A stretch of 64,000 bases of DNA, from positions 62,001 to 126,000 of the forward strand of contig NZ_SOBG01000005.1 in NCBI RefSeq assembly GCF_004365575.1, in the 5' to 3' direction. Each line of letters begins with the position of its first letter. Within the stretch, counting starts at the first letter, position 1. The notes beneath the pieces are model-generated. The model was not told the DNA's origin. It searched no databases and saw only the letters and a list, made by a program, of their open reading frames with translations. Position numbers and translations under genes: made by a program. This document shows, in pieces, positions 19,004 through 20,437 of the stretch. The DNA is from Hypnocyclicus thermotrophus. GTDB lineage: Bacteria; Fusobacteriota; Fusobacteriia; Fusobacteriales; Fusobacteriaceae.

Positions 19004-20227
19004 CTATTTTACTATTATTTTAACTATTTTTTTCTTTCCTACTCTAAATACAAAATCTTTTTCTAATTTTACTATATAATTTAAATCAGTTATTTGATCT
19101 TCGTCTATTTTTACTGCACCTTGTTTTATCATTCTTCTAGCTTCACTTGTTGATTTACAAAATTCTAACTCTTTTACTATTAAATCTATAATTTTTATTT
19201 CACCTTTAGAAAATTCTTTTTCAGGTAAATCTACATTAAGATTTTTTTTAGAAAATACATTTTCAAACCATTCTCTAGCTTTTTCTCCCTCTTCTCTAGA
19301 ATGGTACATAGCTACAATTTCAACTCCTAATCTTTTCTTTACATCCATAGGATGTAAAGTTCCATTCTCTACCCCTTTTCTTAATTTAGCTATCTCTTCT
19401 AGCTCTATATCAGTAGCAAGTTCATAATAATTCCACATAAGCTCATCTGATATAGACATTACCTTTCCAAACATATCATTAGGCGTTTCTCTAAGTCCTA
19501 TATAATTTCCTAATGATTTCGACATTTTTTCCACACCATCAAGTCCTACTAATATTGGAGTCATCATACAAACTTGTTGTTCTTGACCTGCATTTTTTTG
19601 AAGGTCTCTTCCTCTTAGTAAATTAAATTTTTGTTCTGTTGCTCCAAGTTCTATATCTGCTTCTATTGCTACTGAATCATATCCTTGTAATATAGGATAC
19701 ATAAATTCTACAAGTGAAACTGGTTTCCCAGCTTCAAGTCTTTTAGCAAAATCTTCTCTTTGTATCATTTGCGCTACTGTAAATTGTGATAAAAGTTTTA
19801 ATGTATCTTCTAATGTTAGTTTTTCTAACCAATCACCATTATATACTACTTCTATTTTATCAAGATCTAATATTATTTGTACTTGATCAAGCCATCCTTT
19901 TATATTTTTAGCTATTTCTTCTGAAGTAAGCATTTTTCTTGTTTCTGACTTTCCTGTTGGATCTCCTATTTTAGCCGTAAATGAACCTATTAAAAATTTT
20001 ACTCTATGTCCTAATTCTTGAAATTTTTTTAATTTTCTAAGTTGTACAGCATGCCCAATATGTAAATCACTTCCTGTTGGGTCAACTCCTAATTTTACAA
20101 CTAATGGTTTATTATTTTTTATTGAATTTCTTAATTTGCTTTTAAACTCTTCTTCTGAAATTAAATCTTCTACTCCTCTTGTAAGTATTTTAAACTGTCT
20201 TTCCACCTCTTTTTCGATATCTACCAT
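19004..20227 (-). CDS. tyrS: Tyrosyl-tRNA synthetase
   Basis: A 407-residue class Ic synthetase of the TyrZ-like type. The ATP motif HIGH is in GSDLHIGHAVQL (near 56-59), the KMSKS loop is intact (near 237-241), and an S4-like RNA-binding domain occupies the C-terminus (EARRMIKQGAVKID). AGGAGG lies eight bases before the ATG. The gene is preceded by its own promoter, a tyrosine-rich leader peptide and an attenuator-type terminator, so its transcription appears to depend on Tyr-tRNA charging. Length and motifs are normal. Confidence 0.97.
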   Translation of the reverse strand: MVDIEKEVERQFKILTRGVEDLISEEEFKSKLRNSIKNNKPLVVKLGVDPTGSDLHIGHAVQLRKLKKFQELGHRVKFLIGSFTAKIGDPTGKSETRKMLTSEEIAKNIKGWLDQVQIILDLDKIEVVYNGDWLEKLTLEDTLKLLSQFTVAQMIQREDFAKRLEAGKPVSLVEFMYPILQGYDSVAIEADIELGATEQKFNLLRGRDLQKNAGQEQQVCMMTPILVGLDGVEKMSKSLGNYIGLRETPNDMFGKVMSISDELMWNYYELATDIELEEIAKLRKGVENGTLHPMDVKKRLGVEIVAMYHSREEGEKAREWFENVFSKKNLNVDLPEKEFSKGEIKIIDLIVKELEFCKSTSEARRMIKQGAVKIDEDQITDLNYIVKLEKDFVFRVGKKKIVKIIVK

Positions 20228-20252: not shown

Positions 20253-20282
20253 AAAAAAAAGCTCATAGGCACACTATGAGCT
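20253..20282 (-). terminator. Attenuator terminator of tyrS
   Basis: On the minus strand AGCTCATAG and CTATGAGCT form a perfect 9-bp stem (20274-20282 with 20260-20268) with a five-base loop, followed by eight T. It sits between the Tyr-rich leader peptide and tyrS, 26 bases before the tyrS start. A competing pairing exists: CTATGA at 20299-20304 can pair with TCATAG at 20274-20279 and would dissolve the terminator. Confidence 0.85.
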
Positions 20283-20325
20283 AATAATTTATTTATTTTC
20301 ATAGAAATCCCTACACTTATGGCTA

Positions 20326-20379
20326 TTATTTTTTATTAATTTTATTATAATAATAGCTATAATAATAATTTCTGTGCAT
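20326..20379 (-). CDS. tyrS leader peptide, tyrosine-rich
   Basis: Seventeen codons read MHRNYYYSYYYNKINKK, with six tyrosines, all TAT, in two runs of three. AAAAAGGAG lies a few bases before the ATG and a promoter 30 bases further up. The bases over codons 8-11 (20349-20357) are perfectly complementary to bases around the stop codon (20322-20330), giving a 9-bp hairpin that a ribosome stalled on Tyr codons would open. This is the layout of trp- and pheST-type leader peptides. Seen: peptide, ribosome site, hairpins. Inferred: that it senses Tyr-tRNA. Confidence 0.85.
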   Translation of the reverse strand: MHRNYYYSYYYNKINKK

Positions 20380-20408
20380 ATTAGACTCCTTTTTACTGAT
20401 TTTTCTAG

Positions 20409-20437
20409 ATTATATCATATTTTTTTATTCTATACAA
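20409..20437 (-). promoter_or_regulatory. Promoter of the tyrS leader transcript
   Basis: TTGTAT (20432-20437), 17 bases, perfect TATAAT (20409-20414) on the minus strand. It overlaps the last codons of the upstream GNAT gene and places the transcript start about 20 bases before the leader-peptide ATG. Confidence 0.8.

Follow-up and report, generated by a model that had tools for sequence, protein, structure and literature searches.

A probable tyrosine-codon attenuator upstream of tyrS in Hypnocyclicus thermotrophus and an apparently re-coded leader scaffold in its relatives

The tyrS leader region

The window (the whole stretch of 64,000 nucleotides analysed here) carries on its minus strand a gene at 19004..20227 that was named tyrS in a preliminary description. 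The equivalog model TIGR00234 identifies it as tyrosyl-tRNA synthetase with 404 bits. The leader-terminator region lies between tyrS and an acetyltransferase-like ORF, and all of its elements are read on the minus strand. A sigma-70-like promoter, TTGTAT-17-TATAAT, occupies 20409..20437 (TTGTAT 20437-20432, a 17-nt spacer, TATAAT 20414-20409) and would place the transcription start at about 20402. The Shine-Dalgarno (SD) site AAGGAG (20386..20391) precedes a leader ORF of 17 codons, MHRNYYYSYYYNKINKK (20326..20379), with six Tyr codons (5-7 and 9-11; 20349..20367) on either side of Ser8. All six are UAU, in very AT-rich sequence. The ORF is unique in the window, where 75 of the 1629 short ORFs carry an SD site and in only this one of the 75 do five or more codons out of eight specify a single amino acid other than K, I or L.

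Downstream of the Tyr codons, the antiterminator strand CUAUGA (20299..20304), referred to below as segment 3, is complementary to UCAUAG (20279-20274). The latter lies within the 5' arm AGCUCAUAG (20282-20274, segment 4) of a 9-bp intrinsic terminator hairpin (20260..20282), whose 3' arm is CUAUGAGCU (20268-20260) and whose stem is followed by a run of eight T (20253..20260). By folding, the terminator is moderately strong at -11.9 kcal/mol. The promoter, the AAGGAG site, the 17-codon ORF, the CUAUGA/UCAUAG pair, the terminator and the eight T had all been located by the preliminary description exactly where they are found. The same description reported a 9-bp hairpin over codons 9-11; this hairpin is present and perfect at the reported place (GCUAUUAUU 20357-20349 with AAUAAUAGC 20330-20322, together 20322..20357) and forms in the folding without a ribosome, but it spans part of Ser8 to Tyr11 rather than exactly those three codons. 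No T-box (RF00230) or other Rfam family was found at gathering score in an Rfam search of the locus, and no helix masking the tyrS ribosome site was seen. The only T-box-like match of the window genome, below cut-off, lies before aspS (L001 1501-1678; G000:C1:27680-27857).

The whole leader was folded while a 31-nt footprint, standing for the ribosome, was masked at chosen codons, with RNA polymerase just beyond the terminator 5' arm; folding with the RNA upstream of the ribosome removed failed to discriminate, and the masked whole-leader folding was used instead. With the ribosome awaiting Tyr5, the antiterminator arms paired with a probability of 0.65 (0.93 across the six core pairs), compared with 0.47 at the last Tyr codon, 0.00 at the stop codon and 0.04 without a ribosome. 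The upstream part was dinucleotide-shuffled 300 times, and 1 shuffle equalled the difference between Tyr5 and the stop codon. In the stop-codon state, CUAUGA was captured by UUAUAG (20357..20362), which runs from the end of Tyr6 to the start of Ser8. Opening of the first hairpin had been proposed to release the antiterminator. This hairpin shares no bases with either antiterminator strand, so its opening cannot alone free the antiterminator and it was ruled out as the competitor. The preliminary description had marked the details of the switch as uncertain, and the folding now gives the Tyr6-Ser8 segment in its stead; the competing strand of the window copy is thus predicted to be the Tyr codons themselves. 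The antiterminator core is six bp long. Over the complete transcript, no more than about 2 kcal/mol separates the stalled state from the terminated one, and the switch would therefore have to act kinetically.

These data suggest the following course of events. A ribosome would translate MHRNYYYSYYYNKINKK on the nascent leader RNA. When Tyr-tRNA is ample, it would reach the stop codon and leave the Tyr-codon segment exposed to pair with CUAUGA; with CUAUGA sequestered in this way, the terminator would form and transcription would end. When Tyr-tRNA is scarce, the ribosome would stall on the Tyr codons and mask the Tyr6-Ser8 segment, CUAUGA could pair with the terminator 5' arm, and readthrough by RNA polymerase would raise TyrRS. 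The region is very probably a ribosome-mediated transcription attenuator that makes tyrS answer to the supply of charged tRNA-Tyr. What the analysis shows is its anatomy, the conservation of the leader in relatives, covariation of the alternative helices in the related scaffold and the modelled effect of ribosome position; from these we infer stalling, readthrough and a tyrosine response. The region combines an SD-bearing leader ORF, a cognate codon run that is conserved in relatives, an intrinsic terminator between leader and gene and, in silico only, an antiterminator that excludes the terminator and depends on ribosome position.

Tyrosine leaders at tyrS in relatives

The upstream regions of tyrS were compared among related genomes, a check that the preliminary description had called for. 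A leader with a Tyr run followed by a terminator was found upstream of tyrS at 12 related loci besides the window, in members of the same family with the same bacterial-type TyrS. Psychrilyobacter MAGs and Ilyobacter polytropus are among the named members of this family. Six of these leaders are MKFIAVKGYYYYL, MNRKINYNGYYYYYH, MNKKINYNGYYYYYH, MDRKINYNGYDYYYH, MKKNFTLGNRYYYYYL and MIEKLRRNYYYYYYL, and the other six are of the type MKF..NQTYYYYY. One family genome (L014) lacks the Tyr leader at tyrS, the sole exception among the readable ones with this TyrS type; in one further genome (L010/L033), a contig end truncates the region. Outside this family, no Tyr-run leader was found at tyrS in the order or the class. 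The leader peptides differ among genera except in the Tyr run, the runs of relatives use both UAU and UAC, and every relative keeps a hairpin and U run ahead of the gene. The retention of a Tyr-rich ORF and terminator, despite divergence of the remaining peptide and RNA, supports the original proposal of Tyr-codon attenuation of tyrS.

Among genomes whose TyrRS is of the distantly related type II, some carry a Tyr leader of another kind, read at five loci (MITKDNVFLTSSYYYYC and similar). At four type-II loci (L150, L151, L152, L153), an SD-bearing short ORF about 120 nt upstream of tyrS copies approximately the first 19 codons of the adjoining TyrRS gene and then diverges (MEKISDVLRERGQLKQFTDYRYC...). 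This ORF is a truncated duplicate and perhaps another kind of leader.

A shared scaffold and the trpB motif RF04312

The trpB motif, RF04312, entered the literature as a strong riboswitch candidate; it has more than 900 members, drawn from Firmicutes and Fusobacteria, and its authors left room for a classic attenuator (PMC11109978). Its helix P1 is conserved, as is a loop stretch, UUUUGU. Two of the relatives' tyrS leaders match it below cut-off, with 42.9 and 40.9 bits. In 98 Fusobacteriota genomes, matches at E<=0.01 were confined to the family of the window genome, and 65 matches were read, in a first set of 30 and a second set. An SD-bearing leader ORF was found just 5' of P1 in 30 of 30 matches of the first set, with a codon run fitting the next gene, and the same held for most of the stronger matches of the second set. 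With downstream genes identified by NCBIfam and Pfam, His runs precede hisZ and His/basic amino-acid binding proteins, Pro runs putP, Trp runs trpX, Thr runs thrS, Leu runs an SNF transporter, Phe/Trp/Tyr runs aroF, and Tyr runs AGCS symporters. In I. polytropus, the leader MASQNLTNWYFYYYFRN precedes aroF, prephenate dehydrogenase, aroA and a chorismate mutase/prephenate dehydratase gene.

Several matches were taken as false. These are L189, L190 and L194, which score more than 40 bits and have no leader, and the weak leaderless matches to RF04312 or to the model R2 described below (L200, L202, L204, L208-L211, L214, L216 and L217, and further L275, L276, L278, L280 and L283-L285). A Firmicutes candidate from a pattern scan of viral contigs was a chance phage match, and the Listeria, Enterococcus, Limosilactobacillus and Acetoanaerobium records gave weak RF04312 matches only; the motif also gave a signal in Lactococcus lactis, part of the control set. 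One Fusobacterium vincentii locus (L229; NZ_CP084075.1, 1715292-1715411) is a member above cut-off, with segment 1 in place and a leader, MKQILTTTMRYWQNWHR, bearing two Trp codons; in this one case the Trp-codon attenuator is complete and has no gene downstream on the same strand. The record NZ_CP084075.1 is labelled a plasmid; at 2.1 Mb it resembles a chromosome. The remaining Fusobacterial matches lie below cut-off.

A covariance model, R2, was built from 23 diverse leaders; an earlier model, R1, captured the terminator alone and was discarded. At E<=0.001, R2 matches about 145 sites, spread over 51 of the 61 family genomes and reaching 13 of the 14 genera. Twenty matches outside the training set (L290-L309), picked for variety and not at random, were read, and all 20 had a fitting leader codon run (His, Pro, Thr, Tyr, Trp, Met, Asn or Thr/Ile). 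New cases are metG and metN with MKN(I/L)EFRQLNMMMMLWKGL, asnA with MKLHSIVLNDKINNSNNNMSGFGLK and an SNF transporter with ..AFYWWRS. R2 also matched the trpS leader of I. polytropus, MLSFNKNNKNWIHWWF, which lay outside training, at E 0.0016. The window genome has His versions of its own, MKINITIKLHHHRH before hisZ and MYIIFNHHHHR before a His/basic amino-acid binding protein. One scaffold thus appears to be re-coded per amino acid in these related bacteria.

Across the family (e.g. L184, L198, L206), the regulatory runs for Pro, Leu and Thr are written with CCC/CCT, CTA/CTG/CTC and ACC/ACG although the genomes are AT-rich, which may point to a preference for slowly read codons. AGCS symporters (L195, L212, L220, L297, L299) and SNF transporters (L206, L207, L298) follow Tyr, Leu or Trp leaders, which suggests substrates for them. 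In two Ilyobacter-type genomes (L281 1501-2006, L307 201-709), a tandem glycine riboswitch (RF00504) comes after a leader attenuator with Thr/Ile codons, MFRLTITTTIIIM, which puts two amino-acid sensors of different kinds one behind the other; L281 has an asd-like reading frame 3' of both.

In the scaffold, P1 has segment 2 as its left arm and segment 3 as its right arm; segment 1 is complementary to segment 2, and segment 4 is the terminator 5' arm. In 46 of 59 leaders, the start of segment 1 falls between -3 and +5 nt relative to the stop codon's end. Segments paired better with their own partners than with those of other gene families in 40 (1:2), 45 (2:3) and 44 (3:4) of 47 comparisons, and the control pairings 1:3 and 2:4 gave a null result in the same comparison. 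The pairings 1:2 and 3:4 would make up the ON state, and 2:3 and 4:5 the OFF state; changes on both sides of a helix were seen in the ON helices (1:2, 3:4) and far more clearly in the OFF helices (2:3, 4:5). A ribosome at the stop codon would mask segment 1, leaving 2 to pair with 3 and the terminator to form, while one that stalls on the first cognate codon would permit 1:2 and leave 3 free for 4. By folding, segment 3 was held upstream more with the ribosome at the stop codon than with it stalled in 47 of 59 leaders and the reverse was found in 2, these being kin sequences and not 59 independent tests. Many His and Pro leaders showed no antiterminator at equilibrium in any state, and kinetics would therefore be needed in those leaders.

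The window copy is outside both RF04312 (18.6 bits, E 2.7, against a gathering score of 59 bits) and R2; it is related by synteny to the relatives' tyrS leaders and would work in the same manner. It has no P1 between leader and terminator, the canonical segments 1 and 2 and helices 1:2 and 2:3 are absent, and 43 nt separate its stop codon from the terminator, compared with 55-118 nt in the other 58 leaders. The evidence from the scaffold family applies to it only partly, because it lacks segments 1 and 2 and fails both models. It looks like a shortened, divergent descendant of the longer scaffold. We lean, with clearly less assurance than for the attenuator at tyrS, towards a wider reading in which RF04312 across its range, including Firmicutes, is the downstream half of a codon-programmed attenuator, the Fusobacteriaceae scaffold has a T-box-like role for up to ten amino acids (Tyr, His, Trp, Thr, Pro, Met, Asn and Leu, plus Phe and Ile in mixed runs), and the window leader is a stripped-down descendant with its competing strand shifted into the Tyr codons. 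The extension to Firmicutes members of RF04312 is a prediction.

Other readings of these data were weighed. The scaffold could be a metabolite-binding riboswitch, as proposed for RF04312, with incidental short ORFs; the conservation of P1 and UUUUGU and the published candidacy speak for it, but on one scaffold the leader codons match the neighbouring gene across many different amino acids, and the window copy has lost P1 while retaining its Tyr leader, leaving this very unlikely. An action of the leader peptide on tyrS translation, by coupling or reinitiation, or on mRNA stability, with a minor role for the terminator, is improbable. Leader ORFs can couple translation and the terminator is of moderate strength, yet a hairpin and U run precede the gene in every relative, covariation links the antiterminator strand to the terminator arm, and no occluding helix accompanies the tyrS ribosome site.

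Some leader peptides are known to stall ribosomes by their sequence, and the Tyr-run nascent peptide might likewise stall the ribosome itself or sense inhibitors instead of Tyr-tRNA. The chance of this seems slimmer still, as the peptide is unconserved outside the codon run and sister leaders bear other amino acids matched to their genes. A chance Tyr-rich ORF ahead of an ordinary terminator would be easiest to imagine in so AT-rich a leader with six Tyr codons all UAU; it is extremely unlikely given that the ORF is the only one of its kind among the window's 75 short ORFs with an SD site and that the run is conserved in relatives employing UAU and UAC. Ribosome-mediated attenuation remains the preferred reading.

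Relation to known attenuators and T-boxes

Ribosome-mediated attenuation, and leaders for some synthetase genes, are known. The trp, his, thr and pheST attenuators of proteobacteria have a translated leader with runs of regulatory codons and an antiterminator exclusive with an intrinsic terminator, with ribosome position as the signal. The tyrS leader follows the same logic, and the five-segment order of the relatives resembles that of the his operon. It differs from these systems in that a Tyr leader stands before tyrS and the Tyr codons of the window copy would themselves be the competing strand, while in the relatives segment 1 directly follows the stop codon and a single scaffold serves many amino acids.

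Leader-peptide attenuation with cognate codons has been described for the cysS uORF motif of Rhodobacterales (uORFC-8-2; PMC8632094), for trpS and leuS in Streptomyces (PMC1262725) and for the His leaders of hisZ/hisS in bacilli (PMC2965389). These also concern synthetase or synthetase-like genes, but for other amino acids, in other phyla and with no shared scaffold described. In RF04312, the relatives share P1 as the pairing 2:3, its right arm as the antiterminator strand and a terminator thereafter; the motif was published without a leader ORF (PMC11109978), and the window copy is without P1.

As the preliminary description had supposed, no Tyr leader for tyrS was found described, nor a multi-amino-acid shared scaffold in Fusobacteria, in the literature searched, which took in few subscription papers. 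Lopatovskaya et al. in 2010 reportedly treated the attenuation of amino-acid and aminoacyl-tRNA operons, and part of the present picture may already be predicted there. On the reading given here, a tyrosyl-tRNA synthetase would gain a leader-peptide attenuator, and the orphan candidate RF04312 a testable answer, namely the ribosome and not a ligand. Interchangeable codon runs on a single scaffold would also make transporter substrates predictable, as for AGCS transporters with Tyr leaders and SNF transporters with Leu or Trp leaders. Such a scaffold with swappable codon runs would be a modular amino-acid sensor. It resembles the T-box (RF00230) in re-specifying one RNA architecture per amino acid for synthetases, transporters and biosynthesis; the T-box, however, binds tRNA directly, whereas here the translating ribosome would be the sensor.
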